A stretch of 64,000 bases of DNA from Verrucomicrobiota bacterium (GCA_003152315.1 PLZV01000051.1:1-64000); one strand, 5' to 3'. Numbered from the stretch's first letter, positions 9,595-17,108 are shown. A program made the numbers and translations. The notes: a model not told the origin generated them from the letters alone.

Positions 9595-10626
9595 ATGCCT
9601 TTCACGGTTTCTCAAATTGCGGAACAACTACGGGGCGAAGTCCTTGGCGACGGCTCGATTGAATTGACCGGCTTCGCGTCGGCCGACCACGCCAGAAATG
9701 GCGATCTCACTTTCGCCGAAAAAGAAGCCTACTTCGCCGCCGCCGAGCAAAGCCAGGCCGCCGCCATCATTGTGACGGGCGAGTTTACCTCGGCAAAGAA
9801 AGTCCTCATCCGCGTGCCGAATGCGCGAGTGGCGGTGGCGCGGGTGCTGCCGGTCTTTTTCCCGCCGGACCAATACCCACTCGGCATTCATCCGAGCGCG
9901 ATCATCGCCGACTCGGCGCAGATTGATCCCACGGCGCACATCGGGCCGAGCTGCGTGGTGGGCGCCCGCGTGCGATTGGGTGCGCGCTCCGTGCTCATGG
10001 GCGGCAACCATGTCGGTCGCGACTGTCGGATCGGCGACGACGTATGTCTGTTCCCGAACGTCGTCATCTACGCGCAGTCCCAGATTGGCCACCGCGTCAC
10101 CATCCACGCCAGCACGGTCATCGGCTCGGACGGCTACGGCTACGTGTTTGACGAGGGCCGTCACCGCAAGATGTTGCAGGTCGGCAACGTGATCATCCAC
10201 GACGACGTGGAGATCGGCGCTAACGCGGCCATTGACCGCGGCGCGCTCGGCGCCACCATCATCGGGCAGGGCACCAAGATTGATAATCTCGTGCATATCG
10301 CGCACAACGTAACCATTGGCCGGCATTGCCTCATCATGGGTCAGGTGGGTTTCGCCGGCAGCACGCGCCTGGGAGATTATTGCGTGATCGCTTCGCAGTC
10401 GGGAATTGCGGGACATCTCACGCTTGGCAATCAGGCCACGGTCGGAGCGAAGTCGGGCGTCATGCGTGACATTCCTGACAAGGGAACAGTGCTCGGCATC
10501 CCGGCCGCCCCGGACAAACAGGCCAAGCGGCAGATGATCGCGTTACAGCAGTTGCCGGAGTTAATCCGCCGCACGCGCGAACTGGAAAAGCAGGTCGCGG
10601 AACTCAAGGCCGCGGCCGGCGGCTAA
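9595..10626 (+). CDS. lpxD: UDP-3-O-acylglucosamine N-acyltransferase
   Basis: LpxD adds the second 3-hydroxyacyl chain to UDP-3-O-acylglucosamine in lipid A synthesis, using acyl-ACP in the cytoplasm. The 343 residues match the usual length. An N-terminal uridine-binding domain (about 1-100, with GFASADHARNGDLTF) is followed by a left-handed beta-helix of hexapeptide repeats (about 100-300). The catalytic base H237 is in HIAHNVTIG, and a C-terminal helix completes the protein. Finding it alone, without lpxA, lpxB or fabZ, is common outside the Proteobacteria. It shows that this is a lipid A-containing diderm. Confidence 0.96.
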   Translation: MPFTVSQIAEQLRGEVLGDGSIELTGFASADHARNGDLTFAEKEAYFAAAEQSQAAAIIVTGEFTSAKKVLIRVPNARVAVARVLPVFFPPDQYPLGIHPSAIIADSAQIDPTAHIGPSCVVGARVRLGARSVLMGGNHVGRDCRIGDDVCLFPNVVIYAQSQIGHRVTIHASTVIGSDGYGYVFDEGRHRKMLQVGNVIIHDDVEIGANAAIDRGALGATIIGQGTKIDNLVHIAHNVTIGRHCLIMGQVGFAGSTRLGDYCVIASQSGIAGHLTLGNQATVGAKSGVMRDIPDKGTVLGIPAAPDKQAKRQMIALQQLPELIRRTRELEKQVAELKAAAGG

Positions 10627-10710: not shown

Positions 10711-10777
10711 ATGAACGTTCGGTTTGACAATCAATTGGCCGTCATCCATCCTGCGCGCGAGGGCGCAGAACGTTCAT
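10711..10777 (+). promoter_or_regulatory. candidate operator/promoter of the AlbA_2 gene
   Basis: ATGAACGTTC (10711-10720) and its exact inverted copy GAACGTTCAT (10768-10777) flank a TTGACA hexamer at 10724-10729. The second copy overlaps the start codon at 10776. A -10 at 17-base spacing is weak (CATCCT). Each arm holds the palindrome GAACGTTC. The layout suggests a dimeric repressor site, possibly autoregulatory. Confidence 0.5.
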
Positions 10778-11360
10778 GGCGTACACCGAGCAAGAGGTCC
10801 GTGACATCATTAAGCGCGGCGAAACCGACCAGGTGGAACTGAAAGCCGAGGTCCGCGACGCCGGCCTGCTCTCCCGCATCATCTCCGGCTTCGCCAACGG
10901 CAGCGGCGGCGTGATCGTGATCGGCGCACAATCCCCCGGCCATATCGTCGGCTGCGACCGCAAACAACTGGCTCCCGTGTACGACGGCGCGCGGAAGCAG
11001 TTGAACCAAACGCAGGTCGGCTCGCTGGAGTTCGTCCAACTCGACGGCAAGGAAGTCGCCCTGATCAAAGTCGCCAAGTCCGAAAAACTGGTGGCTTCCA
11101 CCAGCGGCGCCTACGTGCGCAAAGGCAGCGGCACCCTGTCGATGACCGCCGACCAAATCTTTGGCAAAGCCGCCGCCAGCGGCGAGCACTCCCTCCGCGG
11201 CCTGTCCAACCTGATCTACGACCAGATGGTCACGATCGACAAACTTCGCCGCACCCTGGAAGAAAAACACTCCTGGAAGTCGAAGGCCACGGACTTCGCC
11301 ATCTCCGGCATCATCGGCGCCGTCCTCGGCGTCGCCCTCTCCAAAATCTTCCTGAAGTGA
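10776..11360 (+). CDS. AlbA_2 (Schlafen-type) DNA-binding protein with C-terminal membrane anchor
   Basis: Residues about 5-125 form an AlbA_2 domain, recognised by GETDQVELKAE and FANGSGGVIVIG, then YVRKGSGTLSMTADQI. This domain is shared by Schlafen proteins and bacterial transcription factors or nucleases. A helical stretch follows, and the last about 20 residues (ISGIIGAVLGVALSKIF) form a membrane helix, which is unusual for a DNA-binding protein. Inverted repeats overlap its promoter and start codon. It lies at the edge of the methyltransferase/ATPase block and could be its regulator or a stand-alone membrane-tethered factor. Confidence 0.75.
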   Translation: MAYTEQEVRDIIKRGETDQVELKAEVRDAGLLSRIISGFANGSGGVIVIGAQSPGHIVGCDRKQLAPVYDGARKQLNQTQVGSLEFVQLDGKEVALIKVAKSEKLVASTSGAYVRKGSGTLSMTADQIFGKAAASGEHSLRGLSNLIYDQMVTIDKLRRTLEEKHSWKSKATDFAISGIIGAVLGVALSKIFLK

Positions 11361-11389
11361 CAGGCCCGAGCGTGCAATCCTGAGTTTAA

Positions 11390-11407
11390 CCCCGAACCCT
11401 TTCGGGG
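11390..11407. repeat. CCCCGAA/TTCGGGG hairpin
   Basis: CCCCGAA and TTCGGGG are separated by CCCT, just after the AlbA_2 gene. The same 7-base arms with 4-base loops recur at 44357-44376 and 44417-44434, so it belongs to a small repeat family. Here it could also act as a terminator stem. Confidence 0.6.
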
Positions 11408-11436
11408 CGCAGCGAAGGATCTCCTCGCAACCGCAA

Positions 11437-11481
11437 CGGCTCGGGAATATCGGCCAGAACGTTGTACCAGCGTGTCGAGAT
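11437..11481 (-). pseudogene. 45-bp relic of a trpB2 5' region
   Basis: The segment matches 8213-8257 of trpB2 at 38 of 45 positions. On the minus strand it reads STRWYNVLADIPEPL; TrpB2 has [15 protein letters not shown]. Sequence on either side does not continue as TrpB2. It is too short to function and marks an old duplication, or a deleted gene, at the edge of the accessory block. Confidence 0.7.
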
Positions 11482-11611
11482 TCATTGACTGCTCGTGGAC
11501 GAGGATGTCGAGGTAGCAACCTTGCTGGCGGGGTGGGTAGCGTCGAAATTTGGCGGGCCTTCCCGGCTCAGCCCGGTCGGTACGACTCGGAGCGGGCGCA
11601 GTTGACACTTG

Positions 11612-11635
11612 TGGTATAATGTTTGCTTAAGGAGG
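11612..11635 (+). promoter_or_regulatory. extended -10 promoter and ribosome site of the methyltransferase gene
   Basis: TGGTATAAT (11612-11620) is a consensus extended -10 element. AAGGAGG (11629-11635) follows at correct spacing to the ATG at 11642. The TTGACA at 11602 is too close to serve as the -35. Confidence 0.65.
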
Positions 11636-11641
11636 TCGTAG

Positions 11642-12835
11642 ATGGGGGGGGTTGAGTTGAATACACGCGTTCATGCCGAGTTTATTACGGCTGTTCACAC
11701 GCGCAAGCCGGTAACAGGTCTATCTCACGGTTTCTACCGGTATCCTGCTAGATTCTCGCCGCTGTTTCCGCGCGCTGCCATTGAGGCTTTCACAAAACCC
11801 GGCGATTTGGTGTTTGACCCCTTCATGGGTGGGGGCACGACGATTGTCGAGGCGAGTGCCGCCGGAAGAATGGCGCTTGGTACGGACATCAACGCTCTGG
11901 CAGTCTTCGTCACCCAGGCGAAGACGACGCTACTTTCCGAAGCTGAACTCTTGGAAGTCCGCGTTTGGGGTTGCGCCCTGTTGCCTGAACTCAATCTTCG
12001 CCTACCCTCCGTACGGGCAACTGACTGGGCAGAACGGGGGTATCACCGAAATATATGTGGCAAGAGGACGTGGCCAATTCGCAAGACGCTCGAATTGGCT
12101 ATCGCACGGTTGGGAGACTTAGGAACAGCACGGCAGCGTCGCTTCGCACGTTGCTCCTTGTTAAGAACCGCACAGTGGGCATTGGACTGCCGTAAACAAG
12201 TTCCGAGCGCCGTTGAGTTTCGCCAGAAGTTTCTGGTTTGCCTGAGCGAGATGGATAATGGGGCGCGAGCCTACGCGAACGCGATTAGACAATGCGGACG
12301 CGCACAACAGAAGCCGCTCTGCCTCCTGCGGTCAGTTGTTGGCGTCGAGTGTGACCCAGTTGTTGCGCGGCAGCGTCCGCCCAAACTCGTTCTGACTTCT
12401 CCCCCCTACCCGGGCGTGCATGTGCTTTATCACCGGTGGCAGATACGAGGCCGACGAGAAACGCCTGCCCCTTATTGGATCGCAAACGGAAAAGACGGCA
12501 GCGGCACGTCATTCTATACGTTTGGCGACCGGCATGAACCCGGCCTGCTAACCTACTTTGAACAGTTACGCGCTTCATTCAAGTCGATAGCGCGAATCAT
12601 CAACAGAGACACGATGGTCGTGCAGATGGTTGCCTTTCCTGACCCCACTTGGCAGTTGCCACAGTACCTCGATGTGATGCAAGACGCCGGCTTTGCGGAG
12701 ACGATCATCCCCGCCTTTGCCAACTCAGACGACGGAAGAATGTGGCGCTGTGTTCCAAACCGGAAATGGTACGCCGATCAGAAAGGCGCAATCGGAAGCA
12801 GCAAGGAAGTCGTGTTATTTCACCGACTTGCCTAG
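11642..12835 (+). CDS. DNA methyltransferase of the TSPPY class
   Basis: The 397-residue protein has the S-adenosylmethionine-binding motif DPFMGGGTT (59-67), preceded by FYRYPARFSP, and the catalytic motif TSPPY (252-256). Motif I precedes motif IV, as in alpha-type amino-methyltransferases of the N6-adenine/N4-cytosine family; TSPPY favours N4-cytosine. The roughly 190 residues between the motifs probably hold the target recognition region. The start at 11642 is fixed by AAGGAGG. The stop TAG is immediately followed by the complement of the next gene's stop (TAGCTA), so it converges on the GHKL ATPase gene with no gap. No restriction nuclease is adjacent. Together they suggest a modification-dependent defence or silencing unit (inference). 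Confidence 0.88.
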   Translation: MGGVELNTRVHAEFITAVHTRKPVTGLSHGFYRYPARFSPLFPRAAIEAFTKPGDLVFDPFMGGGTTIVEASAAGRMALGTDINALAVFVTQAKTTLLSEAELLEVRVWGCALLPELNLRLPSVRATDWAERGYHRNICGKRTWPIRKTLELAIARLGDLGTARQRRFARCSLLRTAQWALDCRKQVPSAVEFRQKFLVCLSEMDNGARAYANAIRQCGRAQQKPLCLLRSVVGVECDPVVARQRPPKLVLTSPPYPGVHVLYHRWQIRGRRETPAPYWIANGKDGSGTSFYTFGDRHEPGLLTYFEQLRASFKSIARIINRDTMVVQMVAFPDPTWQLPQYLDVMQDAGFAETIIPAFANSDDGRMWRCVPNRKWYADQKGAIGSSKEVVLFHRLA

Positions 12836-15289
12836 CTACTCAGGGAGTTGGTCGCGCATTGCTCGTTGCGTTAGTTCAGCCGTCCGCATTGCTTGTTTGA
12901 CCTGCATCTGAGCAACTCTAATCCGGTCAACTTCGAGCAATCGATCTAGGATCTCGTCTGCGATTTCGGCCTTCGCCATGTTGCGGGTGTTTTCTTGCAG
13001 GATGGCGTGATAGCCGATCCAGATTTCGTAGTTCGTGCGAAACAGGTCTGCCATGGCTGGACTTTCCGATTTGAGCTTTTCCACCTGATCCTTGAATGGC
13101 GAAAATATTGTGGAGTAATAAACATTTATTCCGTGGCCCACTTTAAGAGGACGGTACGCCACCGAGGCTTGCTCTTCCATTCCGGCCTCGTCGCCAAGGT
13201 CTGGCCACACGCCGACCCATTGTTCAGCATCGTCGATCGGATTGATGGGGATAATCTCAAACGGAGGAATCAGCCCCTTCGCTTTTTTTGTCTTTTCCTC
13301 CAAAGCTGGGAGAACCTCGAACTCAGTTGTGTCACTGATCTGACTCCCGTCCGGTTTCGTCAATGTTGCAACTATTCTCCCTGCGTCCCCAACCTTGGCC
13401 GTCTCCCGCGGCCGAAGCCGCCAACGAATGCGGCCACCACGGAGTGCAGACTTTGTAGCCAGTTCCATGCAATCCGGTTCCGATCTAATAGCAACGAGTC
13501 GTCGTCGATCAAATTCGGCATCACCGTCTGTCTCAGCAAGCAGGACCTCAATGTCGTTGAGGCGAACAGTCATTTTCGGCTTTGGATACACGATCACAAA
13601 CTTCGTAACCTCCGGGAATGGCAGTGTCGGCAGCGGTTCATAGATCGTGGGTTTTCCTGTGCGCTGCTTTCGAACTGGCTGGAGTTCACCAGCGCCAGCT
13701 GTGACCGATGGCCCCTCCTTTTCTACCTGCAAGCCAGCTTCCAGAAGAAGCCGCGTTACCTGTCGCTTGACTTCTTCGCTAGTTGTTTGGGTTTCATGCT
13801 TCACAAGTTTTTCGGTTAACTCCCGCTCGATTGCATACAGGTTTTCGTCTTCTTCGAGCATCTTTCTTAGTACCCGTGTCAGTTCCGTCAATATTGGACC
13901 ATTCTTGAATCCCTCTCTTGTGGTCGCAAATAATTGACGGCGCACGAGGCTGTTTGCATTCGTCGAGTCGATATGAATTATGACATGTCTTGCAACCATC
14001 CCCAGACCGATGTCCCGGAGCATTTGGGCCGTTATCTCGCCCTGATTCTGACCATTCAGCGTCCCAATGATGGGATGGCCAGTTTGCACGTACAACACAT
14101 TCGACTGCGGTCGTAAAACCAACTCTTCGCGCTTTGCGCCGGTGCCTTTCCGATAGTTGAACACAACCCAATATTCGATGCCGATGCATGGATCTTGCGT
14201 CCCGGGAGGTACGATGTACTCCATCTGTCTATGATGCTTCACATCGGAGCCCTTCTCCTCTTCGGTCGGCTGAGGCTCTTTCGTCTTAACCAGTCTCATC
14301 AAGCGATTGCGGCTGCCAGTGATTAGTTCGTCGCGCGCGCGATCTGCGTCGCGCAAATCAAACAGCCGGAACGGAAACAGCGGGTCAAACATAGAGCAGT
14401 GGAGAAAGTGGTATAGATTCCCAGGGGTCGGACTTAGGCTGCCTTCTAGATAAGGCAACTGATACGCGATGTGGCGGACAAGGGTTCCTTGTGCAAGCGT
14501 CGGCAGCTTCAACCCCTTCTGTGGTTGATATAACGACAGGGGGCCAAGTTCCAGTTCACACGATGGAACAGTCAGATTGCCCGCAGCATCCTTTAGCGCC
14601 AGATATGCATACGTGTCCTCTTTGTACTGCTCATTAAGGGCTAGAACCTTGATGATTGTGAATCCGGCAACTTTCGGATTGTCTTTGTGGCGCGAGACGA
14701 TGAAAGCGTATTCACAGAACGAAAGTGCGGAGGCACCACCTTGGCCAAAAGCTCCGATCAAGTACCACTTTTGTATCTTGTTTCCCGACTGAAGACTGAG
14801 AATCGTCCCGGGAAACTGCTCGGGACTCAGCCCAATGCCCGCATCCACAACATCTATAGTCGGTGCCGTTTCAACGCCGCTGGAGTTTACAACCACCGCA
14901 ATGCGTCGGTCATAGCCGTGATCTGAAAACGACCACTTAAAAAGTCCTTCGTCTGGTCCGGTAATGGGACGCCCAAACCACTGTTTCGCTGCTTCTCTTG
15001 CTGATCGCGGCGTTGGAACATTTACGGGCACGCGATCTTCGAGTATTGCATCCATTGCATTCGTTAGACGCTCAGTTAAGCTGCGACCTGGCTTCGTACC
15101 CAGGTTAATCGTTGAGATGTTTGATGGGTTGTTTCCAAATGCGTGCCACACTAGGTGAAATGGACCAAACGGTTGATCAAGCCCCAAATCTGCGTGGTCG
15201 CCTATATCTTGAAGGACAACTCGAATGCTCGCGCCAGATGTTGTAGCGAGCAACGCATTCAGCATTTCATTGTAGTTTGTATAATTCAC
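12836..15289 (-). CDS. large GHKL ATPase (MORC/MutL/Hsp90-like), putative defence protein
   Basis: The 817-residue protein has an N-terminal GHKL ATPase fold: SLTERLTNAMD (E73, N77), DVVDAGIGL (D149xGxG) and lid motif GAFGQGGAS (179-185). The following about 150 residues resemble a transducer (S5-like) domain. The rest is helical and beta-rich with no recognised nuclease motif. The GTG at 15289 is preceded by GGGAG at 6 bases. The gene lies 40 bases after vapC on the same strand and ends abutting the convergent methyltransferase. Prokaryotic MORC/MutL-like ATPases are known neighbours of restriction-modification genes. Base composition is visibly lower in GC than the flanks. The role in DNA surveillance is inferred. 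Confidence 0.85.
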   Translation of the reverse strand: MNYTNYNEMLNALLATTSGASIRVVLQDIGDHADLGLDQPFGPFHLVWHAFGNNPSNISTINLGTKPGRSLTERLTNAMDAILEDRVPVNVPTPRSAREAAKQWFGRPITGPDEGLFKWSFSDHGYDRRIAVVVNSSGVETAPTIDVVDAGIGLSPEQFPGTILSLQSGNKIQKWYLIGAFGQGGASALSFCEYAFIVSRHKDNPKVAGFTIIKVLALNEQYKEDTYAYLALKDAAGNLTVPSCELELGPLSLYQPQKGLKLPTLAQGTLVRHIAYQLPYLEGSLSPTPGNLYHFLHCSMFDPLFPFRLFDLRDADRARDELITGSRNRLMRLVKTKEPQPTEEEKGSDVKHHRQMEYIVPPGTQDPCIGIEYWVVFNYRKGTGAKREELVLRPQSNVLYVQTGHPIIGTLNGQNQGEITAQMLRDIGLGMVARHVIIHIDSTNANSLVRRQLFATTREGFKNGPILTELTRVLRKMLEEDENLYAIERELTEKLVKHETQTTSEEVKRQVTRLLLEAGLQVEKEGPSVTAGAGELQPVRKQRTGKPTIYEPLPTLPFPEVTKFVIVYPKPKMTVRLNDIEVLLAETDGDAEFDRRRLVAIRSEPDCMELATKSALRGGRIRWRLRPRETAKVGDAGRIVATLTKPDGSQISDTTEFEVLPALEEKTKKAKGLIPPFEIIPINPIDDAEQWVGVWPDLGDEAGMEEQASVAYRPLKVGHGINVYYSTIFSPFKDQVEKLKSESPAMADLFRTNYEIWIGYHAILQENTRNMAKAEIADEILDRLLEVDRIRVAQMQVKQAMRTAELTQRAMRDQLPE

Positions 15290-15329
15290 GATTCACTCCC
15301 ATGTCTCTCCTTCAACACACAGTCGTCGG

Positions 15330-15746
15330 TCATTTTGCCTGTAGCCAGCCGATTTTGATTTCGCTCTCGACCTCTTTGAATTCCAGATCGCCGGTGACCA
15401 GTTCGGCATTTCGGAGCTTCGCAAGGGCGGCGGCGAAAGCATCGGCGTATGAGAGTTTTTTCGTGGCCTTGTAGATGGCGGCCTGACGCACCAAATCCAT
15501 GTTCTTCTCGTCCACGCCCACCATTTCTATCGTCAAACCCGCAAGTTCCTTTGCTTTCTGCTCCGCGACTTCCTGCGACACCTTGCGCATGGTGCTGTAG
15601 TAAATCTCACCCCAATTGACCACGCACAGGAGTAGTTTGTGCGTGCCGGCCTCAGCCTTAACCAGAAGTTTTTCCACCTCTTCCGCGGCAGGCTCGTCCT
15701 CGAAGAAAGCGATCAGCGCCCAGCTATCCAATACCTTGGTGGCCAT
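15330..15746 (-). CDS. vapC: VapC-type PIN domain toxin
   Basis: This 138-residue PIN ribonuclease carries the acidic quartet that binds the metal ion: D7 in VLDSWAL, E47 in NWGEIYY, D102 in SYADAFAAAL and D120 in VTGDLEF. Such toxins cleave tRNA or rRNA when their antitoxin is degraded. Its ATG follows the antitoxin stop by one base, so the two are translationally coupled. The GHKL ATPase gene follows 40 bases downstream on the same strand, so all three may share the vapB promoter. Confidence 0.92.
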   Translation of the reverse strand: MATKVLDSWALIAFFEDEPAAEEVEKLLVKAEAGTHKLLLCVVNWGEIYYSTMRKVSQEVAEQKAKELAGLTIEMVGVDEKNMDLVRQAAIYKATKKLSYADAFAAALAKLRNAELVTGDLEFKEVESEIKIGWLQAK

Positions 15747-15747
15747 G

Positions 15748-15993
15748 TCAGAGCTCTCGCTCGCGCTTGCGGTCGTCCATCAGCGCCTTCAACACGCCCG
15801 AGCCTTTCAACGAGCCGCGCAGGTTCTTGATGTGTTGGGTTGTGATCGGTTTGAGCACAATCGCGTCCGCCTCCTGGTACACCAGGGCGCGTGTGCCCTC
15901 TTCGATCTCGAACTCCTTGCGTAGCCAGCGGGGAATCACCACTTGGCCCTTAACGGTAAACCGAATCGTGTCGGTCTTGTGTGTTGTCTTCAT
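15748..15993 (-). CDS. vapB: AbrB/SpoVT-type antitoxin (VapB)
   Basis: The 81-residue protein has a swapped-hairpin AbrB DNA-binding domain at its N-terminus (RFTVKGQVVIPRWLRKEF, then EEGTRALVYQ) and a basic helical tail that probably occupies the VapC active site. The ATG at 15993 is preferred over a TTG three codons earlier. TATGAT ends 8 bases before it, consistent with a leaderless message. Antitoxins of this type repress their own promoter, and an inverted repeat (ATCAT/ATGAT) overlaps the -10. Confidence 0.9.
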   Translation of the reverse strand: MKTTHKTDTIRFTVKGQVVIPRWLRKEFEIEEGTRALVYQEADAIVLKPITTQHIKNLRGSLKGSGVLKALMDDRKREREL

Positions 15994-16001
15994 AGTTCGC
16001 A

Positions 16002-16067
16002 ATCATACTCGATGATATGAAGTAAGTAAACAACTATTTTGTAGGAATGTTTTATCCATGTTATACT
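16002..16067. promoter_or_regulatory. divergent promoters: vapBC (-) and ABC permeases (+), with candidate VapB operator
   Basis: On the minus strand TATGAT (16007-16002) is the vapB -10. ATCAT ACTCG ATGAT (16002-16016) is a small inverted repeat over it, a likely antitoxin operator. On the plus strand TTGTAG (16039-16044), 17 bases, then TATACT (16062-16067) forms a promoter 124 bp before the permease ATG. Confidence 0.5.
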
Positions 16068-16190: not shown

Positions 16191-17108
16191 ATGCACGTGT
16201 TCCTGCTACGGCGGATCGGGTCGCTGGTGGTGGCGCTGTTTGTCGCCAGCATCGCGGTCTTCCTGCTCGTGCGCGCGGTGCCGGGCGATCCGGCGCGGCT
16301 GCTTCTCAAAAATCCGACCCCGGAACGGATCGCGGCGATTCGCCAAAGACTCTCCCTGGATCGGCCCCTGCCGCTGCAATACTGGATCTGGCTCAAGAAC
16401 GCGCTCGGTCGCGGGAGTTTTGGCGAGTCGATTGTCACGGGCCGCGATGTGAAGGAAGACCTGGCGCGGACGTGGCCCGCGACGATTGAACTGTCCGTCG
16501 TGGCTTTGCTGATCGCCACCGCCGCCGGTGTGTGGCTCGGGATTTTTTGCGCGCGCCATGTGGGCACGTGGAAAGACGCGCTGGGGACAACGGTGAGTCT
16601 CGTGGGTCTCAGTGTGCCGGTCTTCTGGTTGGGACTGCTCGCGATGTTGCTCTTCTCGCTGGAACTCGGCTGGCTGCCGGCGGGCGAACGCGGCGGCCTC
16701 GATCATCTCATTTTACCAGCGCTCGTCCTGGCAACCATCCCGGCGGCCTTTATCGCGCGGGTGGCGCGGACCGCCGTGCTGGAGACGTTGGGTCAGGATT
16801 TTATCCGCACCGCCCGCGCCAAGGGCGTGAGCGAGCGAACGGTTCTCTATCGCCACGCATTGCGTGCAGCATTGGTTCCTATCGTCACCATGATCGGCGT
16901 CGAGTTCGCGTATCTACTTGGTGGCGCGGTATTAACGGAAACAGTGTTTGCGTGGCCGGGCATCGGGCGCTACATCGCCACCGCCGTGCTGGCGCGGGAT
17001 TACCCGGCGATCCAAGGCGCGCTGCTCGTGCTGGTGGCCATGGTCATGATCGCGAATTTCGCGGTGGACATCGCGCACCACGCGCTCGACCCGAAACTAC
17101 GGCGATGA
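16191..17108 (+). CDS. ABC transporter permease, DppB/OppB family
   Basis: The 305 residues have six membrane helices. The first (about 5-28) precedes the conserved VRAVPGDPA, typical of the first peptide/nickel permease. The EAA-type cytoplasmic loop reads FIRTARAKGVSERTVLYRHALR. TETVFAWPGIG is the family signature near the last helices. It overlaps the next gene by ATGA. It would form the inner-membrane channel with that gene. No ATPase or binding-protein gene is within reach on either side, so those partners must be encoded elsewhere. The substrate is unknown; peptides or nickel are the family norms. Confidence 0.92.
   Translation: MHVFLLRRIGSLVVALFVASIAVFLLVRAVPGDPARLLLKNPTPERIAAIRQRLSLDRPLPLQYWIWLKNALGRGSFGESIVTGRDVKEDLARTWPATIELSVVALLIATAAGVWLGIFCARHVGTWKDALGTTVSLVGLSVPVFWLGLLAMLLFSLELGWLPAGERGGLDHLILPALVLATIPAAFIARVARTAVLETLGQDFIRTARAKGVSERTVLYRHALRAALVPIVTMIGVEFAYLLGGAVLTETVFAWPGIGRYIATAVLARDYPAIQGALLVLVAMVMIANFAVDIAHHALDPKLRR

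Follow-up and report, generated by a model that had tools for sequence, protein, structure and literature searches.

The 64,000-nucleotide stretch of Verrucomicrobiota DNA analyzed here (the window) carries a convergent pair of genes for a DNA methyltransferase and an ATPase. The methyltransferase (P0001, 397 residues, 11642-12835, plus strand) is of the N4/N6 type, matches the Pfam family N6_N4_Mtase (PF01555, E = 2.3e-13) and represents the modification half of the pair. Its SAM-binding motif I, DPFMGGGTT (residues 59-67, 11816-11842, plus strand), and its catalytic motif IV, TSPPY (residues 252-256, 12395-12409, plus strand), had been recognized in a preliminary description of the locus, and were confirmed together with the open reading frame. 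Residues D59, G63, G64 and T66 of motif I and the whole of motif IV are invariant in 13 members of the family.

The ATPase (P0002, 817 residues, 12836-15289, minus strand) has a GTG start codon and is the proposed sensor or effector of the pair. Its N-box ERLTNAMDA (15047-15073), G1 box D149-A-G-I-G (14831-14845) and ATP-lid motif GAFGQGG (residues 179-185, 14735-14755) are followed, in the S5 or transducer domain, by the tripeptide NGQ (residues 412-414, 14048-14056), all on the minus strand. The ATP-site motifs had been noted before, and were borne out by the sequence, by fold comparison (see below), and by conservation. In 29 aligned members of the family, E73, N77, D80, D149, G151, G153, K171, G179, G184 and NGQ were 100% conserved. 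Judged by sequence, the invariant ATP-site residues suggest that the protein should bind and hydrolyze ATP. The methyltransferase and ATPase genes meet tail to tail at TAGCTA (12833-12838), with zero bases between the stop codons, just as originally described.

Upstream of the ATPase gene, at a distance of 40 bases and on the same strand, lies a vapC-type PIN RNase gene (15330-15746, minus strand; PF01850, E = 3.7e-16), preceded by an AbrB/MazE-type antitoxin gene (15748-16002, minus strand; TIGR01439, E = 1.3e-7). On the other side of the pair, an SLFN_AlbA_2 domain protein is encoded (10776-11360, plus strand; PF04326, E = 1.6e-11). These profile matches agree with the earlier naming of all three neighbors. 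The genes flanking the unit are presumably lpxD (9595-10626) and a gene for a DppB-like permease (16191-17108). The GC content is 0.51-0.53 over the ATPase gene and about 0.60-0.65 in the flanks, a dip that fits an acquired insert. The ATPase gene is present as a single copy in the source genome. Terminator and promoter scans of the locus performed no better than on shuffled sequence.

The position of vapC had suggested that it might share a promoter with the ATPase gene, and that the ATPase may sense the modification while the co-transcribed VapC RNase acts as the effector. A PIN gene also lies between the two genes of the pair in one other locus (L025). However, homologues of the window VapC, its antitoxin and the AlbA_2 protein were absent from all 40 other related loci, and the slot upstream of the ATPase gene is held by different genes elsewhere. 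We therefore rejected VapBC and AlbA_2 as conserved partners and regard them as passengers outside the conserved unit. Neither a promoter shared with VapBC nor a partnership with AlbA_2 is supported, and VapC as the effector is strongly disfavored and very improbable.

Immediately upstream of the ATPase gene, the most frequent neighbor is a small gene of 75-108 codons, found in 17 of the 40 loci (including L018, L019, L020, L022, L030, L139, L140, L143, L145, L148, L152, L153 and L157), with both N4/N6 and C5 methyltransferases as partners. The window has vapBC there, and not the small gene. The encoded protein carries the motif KFVxLAExRTxxAIKAIRxIGKLGNKSxYEY, and the two sequences tested had no significant Pfam match. 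Larger genes hold the position in L021 and L151, and in L023, L024 and L150.

Occurrence of the methyltransferase-ATPase pair

A two-sequence methyltransferase alignment was used to scan 84,980 genomes, one per species. The scan identified 12 relatives, from Nitrospirales, Alphaproteobacteria, Roseobacter, Rhodobacter, Acidobacteria, Verrucomicrobia, Lysobacter, Latescibacterota, Gallionella, Thermoflexaceae, Planctomycetaceae and Dehalococcoidia, and a viral collection added one more (L030). Identity of the window methyltransferase to the 12 relatives is 41-50% over the full length, and the motifs TSPPYPG and HxLYHRWQ are invariant. A profile search for the ATPase family located an ATPase in the same cluster for 11 of the 12 genome relatives, or 12 of 13 with L030 counted. 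The exception, L026, retains the methyltransferase only as a 225-residue remnant. Far from almost never co-occurring, a possibility weighed in the preliminary description, the two genes belong together as that description had proposed, and the pair is present in at least seven bacterial phyla.

The arrangement of the pair is conserved as well. In loci reached via either gene, 18 of 20 pairs are tail to tail, and the stop codons are at most 18 bases apart in 13 of the 17 measurable pairs. The two other pairs are a tandem one (L154) and a rearranged one (L025), in which a DndB gene and the PIN gene mentioned above lie in between. The pair of L027 was originally convergent, but its ATPase gene is interrupted by a transposase-like gene. 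Defense and restriction-modification (R-M) genes generally cluster in islands, and the two genes of the convergent pair might travel together only through an accident of how islands are assembled, without being functionally linked. The geometry shared across phyla between flanking genes that are otherwise mostly unshared argues against this explanation, as does the retention of the layout where partners have been exchanged (L149 and L144, see below), and we consider such an accident scarcely credible.

A survey starting from the ATPase gave a similar picture. The family was present in 11 of 385 alphaproteobacterial genomes, which provided eight assessable loci. The partner was a window-type methyltransferase in three of the eight (L139, L140 and L141) and a C5 methyltransferase in two (L146 and L148). 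L149 has another N4/N6 methyltransferase, convergent with the ATPase with an overlap of 58 bases, L144 has SspABCD as the partner, and L143 has no obvious partner. Among loci from Verrucomicrobiota, two have a window-type methyltransferase (G000 and G289) and one a C5 methyltransferase with a four-base overlap (G046). In the viral collection, the ATPase occurs with a window-type methyltransferase in L150, L152, L153 and L154. In L157, its partner is a C5 methyltransferase, and a Vsr-like gene is also present. The immediate neighbor in L155 and L156 is not a methyltransferase, and L151 is cut by the contig end. Over genomes and viral collection together, a DNA methyltransferase is the immediate neighbor of the ATPase in 14 of 18 assessable loci, a count that includes L148 and L157, where the small accessory gene intervenes; one more ATPase adjoins SspABCD.

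In order to estimate how often this would happen by chance, we counted about 11 other places with N6_N4 methylases in the 4.9 Mb source genome, which corresponds to a chance adjacency of about 0.5% per gene for this class, and multiplied this value by three to account for all methyltransferases. The resulting chance of the observed adjacency is about 6e-23, a rough figure that ignores relatedness and clustering in islands. The adjacency of methyltransferase and ATPase is far above chance.

The ATPase family is patchy, being present in about 1-3% of the genomes sampled, and has no modification gene nearby in L143, L156, Pontibacillus and Haladaptatus. In the viral collection, a contig of 597 kb contains the L156 homologue (L156:7992-10412), which has no methyltransferase adjoining and is possibly a counter-defense or superinfection-exclusion protein. 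Viral-contig homologues such as those of L155 and L156 suggest that the ATPase family may have other roles.

A scan of the genome contigs with P0002 as a single sequence gave no match, because P0002 is too divergent, and the methyltransferase alignment served as the working bait. P0002 did not match the phage collection either. A weak match (G115, E = 6e-4) was rejected, since the frame is antisense to an unrelated transporter gene, and viral-scan matches L031-L108, which mainly covered the motif-I region, were excluded. We also rejected L015 and L016, which resembled a form of the system equipped with a nuclease. No ATPase accompanies their methyltransferases, whose identity is only 20-25% and which belong to a different family. 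These cassettes (L015:8902-12643 and L016:8869-12595), located on Methylobacterium and Roseibium plasmids, consist of overlapping or adjacent genes for two DNA methyltransferases and a phospholipase-D-like protein, and resemble a PLD-nuclease R-M system.

The ATPase family and its relation to known systems

The ATPase matched no Pfam, NCBIfam or PADLOC model. It had been asked earlier whether the ATPase is part of a well-described system; none of the families of PADLOC-DB 2.0.0 matched it at E values up to 1, and the methyltransferase matched only the generic MTase_II. A search of PHROGs yielded only a chance-level match (E = 0.21), and an ATPase profile compared with PDB sequences yielded two chance-level matches and no GHKL protein. 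Conserved residues and fold comparison identify the protein as a member of the GHKL superfamily, with a Bergerat ATP site followed by an S5-type transducer. Profile-profile comparison places it in its family with E = 3e-111 over 687 columns. For the window ATPase, AlphaFold2 produced a modest model (pLDDT 61, pTM 0.51), whose residues 53-495 match the N and M domains of Hsp90 with a Z score of 15.2. In the model of the L150 relative (pLDDT 78, pTM 0.59), residues 43-488 match the ATPase modules of Hsp90, MORC3, MORC4, MutL, SMCHD1 and topo VI-B with Z scores of 15-19. MORC2 is also among the fold matches, and topo VI-B is the top Foldseek match for the L150 relative. Topo VI-B, MutL and Hsp90 share the Bergerat ATP site and the S5-type transducer with the window family, but identity is only about 10-14%, and a Spo11-like cutting partner or a mismatch-repair or chaperone context is lacking.

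The preliminary description had called the protein MORC/MutL-like. This is correct for the fold, but not for MORC in the strict sense. The defining MORC motif of the S5 domain, GhXhhpXXRhl, is absent from all 36 sequences, 34 of which have the family-diagnostic NGQ in its place; the other two are the N-terminal halves of a split gene.

After residue 510, the ATPase continues with a beta-rich domain and a helical end. The beta-rich domain is probably Ig-like, judging from weak matches of the model to antibody-like viral and phage Ig-like proteins. Conservation in the 29 members reaches 80% at only 12 positions of this C-terminal region. Acidic residues account for just two of them, namely D588 and an aspartate at about position 728, where the window aligns as Ile. 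No D...ExK or HNH set was detected after residue 510 in the 29 aligned members, and no Pfam nuclease match in 11 ATPases, supporting the previous impression that no nuclease is recognizable. The lists of fold matches for the C-terminal part were filled by the ATPase domain, so that the lack of a nuclease match there proves nothing.

To our knowledge, R-M systems that act on DNA end in cleavage. The pair could thus be a conventional R-M system in which the last 300 residues of the ATPase conceal a nuclease, or in which the ATPase recruits an unlinked one in the style of MutL-MutH or Vsr. Precedent for a built-in nuclease is provided by paraMORC3, a GHKL-Shedu nuclease fusion in which both activities are needed (PMC12137116), and the Vsr-like gene beside the ATPase in the C5 locus L157 and a helicase beside an archaeal relative also speak for this reading. 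Set against this are the scarcity of conserved, and particularly acidic, C-terminal positions, the missing catalytic sets and Pfam matches, and the lack of any nuclease among the conserved neighbors of the pair. On this evidence, such a conventional R-M system is unlikely. Like a type II R-M system, the window has a methyltransferase that appears to be active, with motifs I and IV intact and conserved; unlike such a system, it lacks a cognate restriction endonuclease, both within the pair and among conserved neighbors, and VapC is a PIN RNase that other loci do not share.

As stated in the preliminary description, MORC-like ATPases are known neighbors of R-M genes. MORC and paraMORC1-5 ATPases were described in R-M clusters in 2008, mostly with helicases and nucleases, and a similar role, with DNA looping, was proposed for them (Iyer, Abhiman and Aravind 2008, PMC2292703). 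An SFII helicase is a neighbor in about 70% of MORC cases, and a minority of the neighborhoods have methylases or restriction enzymes and no helicase (PMC2292703). The window family resembles these proteins in combining GHKL and S5 domains in an ATPase whose gene accompanies DNA methylase genes in laterally mobile clusters. It differs in its fixed tail-to-tail layout and in the absence of a nuclease, TIR domain or helicase from the window-type pair. There is no SFII helicase beside the window pair, and an annotated helicase occurs only with archaeal relatives.

The individual paraMORC groups were compared in turn. The ExxxH that is conserved in the S5 domain of paraMORC2 is missing from P0002, and its place varies among the relatives. 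ParaMORC3 (VcSduA), a phage-defense protein with a required ATPase residue, shares the GHKL ATPase (PMC12137116). It brings a PD-(D/E)xK nuclease of its own at the C-terminus and is described without mention of a methyltransferase, whereas 11 members of the window family have no Pfam match to such a domain (DUF4263) and no conserved catalytic set. Unlike paraMORC4, the ATPases have no Pfam TIR match; the scan for neighboring TIR genes covered some of the loci. The window ATPase family is thus set apart from MORC and from paraMORC2, 3 and 4, the groups included in the comparison. ParaMORC1 and paraMORC5, which lie outside it, have family-specific C-terminal extensions, with an HxH in that of paraMORC5 (PMC2292703).

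Exchange of DNA-modification partners

Plasmid-borne relatives of the ATPase in Hymenobacter, Devosia and Ensifer are located near genes annotated as DUF4007 or PAPS reductase. DUF4007 corresponds to SspB (PMC12839542, 2026). PADLOC models identified the Devosia genes as SspA, SspB, SspC and SspD, the scored genes of L144 as SspA, SspC and SspD, and the Hymenobacter PAPS reductase as SspD, with scores of up to 1345 bits for SspC, 374 for SspB, 303-437 for SspD and 231-498 for SspA. ATPase relatives beside SspABCD were found in L007, L008, L009 and L144, and genes were scored for L007, L008 and L144. The ATPase and SspD genes of L144 converge in the same layout as the window pair, and no SspE-like gene was noticed there. 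The GHKL ATPase beside SspABCD is possibly an undescribed Ssp effector. In Hymenobacter (L007:11337-13215), SIR2-family and DUF262 genes separate the ATPase from SspD and may form an alternative Ssp effector pair, so the ATPase is perhaps not the sole effector there.

The known effector of this system, SspE, is a phosphorothioate-stimulated NTPase and nicking nuclease (e.g. PMC8092258, PMC9646914). The two systems are alike in combining modification genes with an NTPase as the known or candidate effector, which in the case of SspE senses the mark, and some relatives of the window ATPase adjoin SspABCD itself. They differ in that the effector candidate of the window is a GHKL ATPase, the mark would be base methylation, and SspABCD is absent from the window. 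A partnership with SspABCD is also missing from the description of MORC and paraMORC proteins (PMC2292703). HEF_HK and Response_reg_2 elements, GHKL proteins that occur near R-M genes, are linked to C5 methyltransferases and related to paraMORC (PMC8011034). HEF_HK-type proteins are absent from the window. They adjoin the Ssp-linked ATPase relatives of Devosia and, as judged by size and order, those of Ensifer. They differ from the window ATPase in having HATPase_c_3, HEF_HK and HATPase_c domains.

Other partners were also found. DndB-type genes directly adjoin the GHKL ATPase in Latescibacterota (L025:7658-8773) and Rhodococcus (L125:5595-6767), and haloarchaeal relatives are accompanied by C5 methyltransferases, in one case also by an annotated helicase.

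In the ATPase tree, the window protein groups with L149, L024, L030 and Rhodococcus, apart from the main methyltransferase-linked clade (support 99/98). It is a long-branch member, about 20-29% identical to the others, and its exact place is unsure because of long branches in its group. In L024 (11131-14069) and L030 (11208-14129), which come from independent sources, the ATPase is split at the same place into two adjacent genes of about 365 and 610 codons, separating the GHKL domain from the remainder. The second half matches window residues 407-765 (E = 2.6e-8). The two split ATPases form one group in the ATPase tree (100/100), whereas their methyltransferases fall into different supported groups, one with L023 and L028 (98/100), and the other with L140, L152 and L153 (96/96). 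The conflict between the trees indicates that partners were exchanged and pairs re-formed. The joining of one kind of ATPase to different methyltransferase lineages, with the layout kept, would be difficult to account for if the two genes were not functionally linked. L149 and L144 likewise have exchanged partners and retain the tail-to-tail layout. What is new is a strict tail-to-tail methyltransferase-ATPase unit that spans phyla and has no recognizable nuclease, with one ATPase family beside both base methylation and phosphorothioation. The open-access papers that we searched contained no description of a methyltransferase-GHKL ATPase unit, and an earlier one may exist elsewhere.

A possible role in self-versus-foreign DNA discrimination

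Conserved pairing, an intact ATP site, a transducer fold, the lack of a recognizable nuclease, and the exchange of modification partners point to a mobile, R-M-like two-gene module. With moderate confidence, we favor a module in which the methyltransferase marks self and the GHKL-S5 ATPase discriminates and enforces as a clamp. In an undescribed defense system that tells self DNA from foreign DNA, the ATPase would probably be the enforcing half. Here, as in the preliminary description, a defense role is what we infer for the pair.

The methyltransferase would mark host DNA at a specific site, as N4-methylcytosine or N6-methyladenine. The ATPase would act as a dimeric clamp gated by ATP, similar to MORC, MutL or topo VI-B, and load on DNA depending on the status of the mark, most likely on unmarked incoming DNA. 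The clamp itself might then be the effector and block the DNA by entrapment or looping, or it might recruit a nuclease encoded elsewhere. As the core pair has no nuclease, DNA destruction is unproven. The polarity could also be the opposite, with the mark activating the ATPase in the way that phosphorothioation stimulates SspE (PMC8092258).

Decayed loci bear on this proposal. A broken ATPase gene lies beside an intact methyltransferase gene in L141 and L027, and the reverse, an intact ATPase beside a broken methyltransferase of the family, was not seen among the loci examined. In R-M systems, the modification gene must outlive the restriction gene. The decay pattern, drawn from three loci only, fits this logic.

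Methylation could also be used for an epigenetic or chromosome-organizing purpose. The ATPase would then compact or silence DNA by methylation, like eukaryotic MORC, and would mainly serve mobile-element silencing or host-gene regulation, not protection from phages. The fold matches to the ATPase modules of MORC2, MORC3, MORC4 and SMCHD1 and the lack of a nuclease are consistent with such a device, and the small upstream gene present in many loci could encode a regulator. However, the patchy presence, the location in islands between housekeeping genes, and the carriage on plasmids and viral contigs look like defense, and the exchange with Ssp and C5 modification cassettes suggests defense rather than housekeeping. 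We therefore consider an epigenetic device improbable.

The defense reading can be tentatively extended to the whole family. The ATPases may form a modification-agnostic, nuclease-free group of GHKL clamps that read the absence or presence of N4/N6, C5 and phosphorothioate marks, block non-self DNA by ATP-driven entrapment instead of cutting, and are thus a prokaryotic functional counterpart of MORC silencing. This broader idea is possible, though on balance doubtful. If the system works as proposed, a DNA clamp that lacks a nuclease could enforce self/non-self discrimination of the R-M type, and a single effector family would serve three types of DNA mark. MORC chromatin silencing was proposed in 2008 to have its source in prokaryotic MORC-like ATPases, and this idea would become directly testable. 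On the ATPase side, the two-gene system is missed by the Pfam, NCBIfam and PADLOC models.

The junction of the two genes may also matter for their expression. In the window pair and in relatives across phyla, the stop codons abut or overlap (down to -95 bases), which leaves no space for a terminator between methyltransferase and ATPase. The two genes might exert antisense control on each other.
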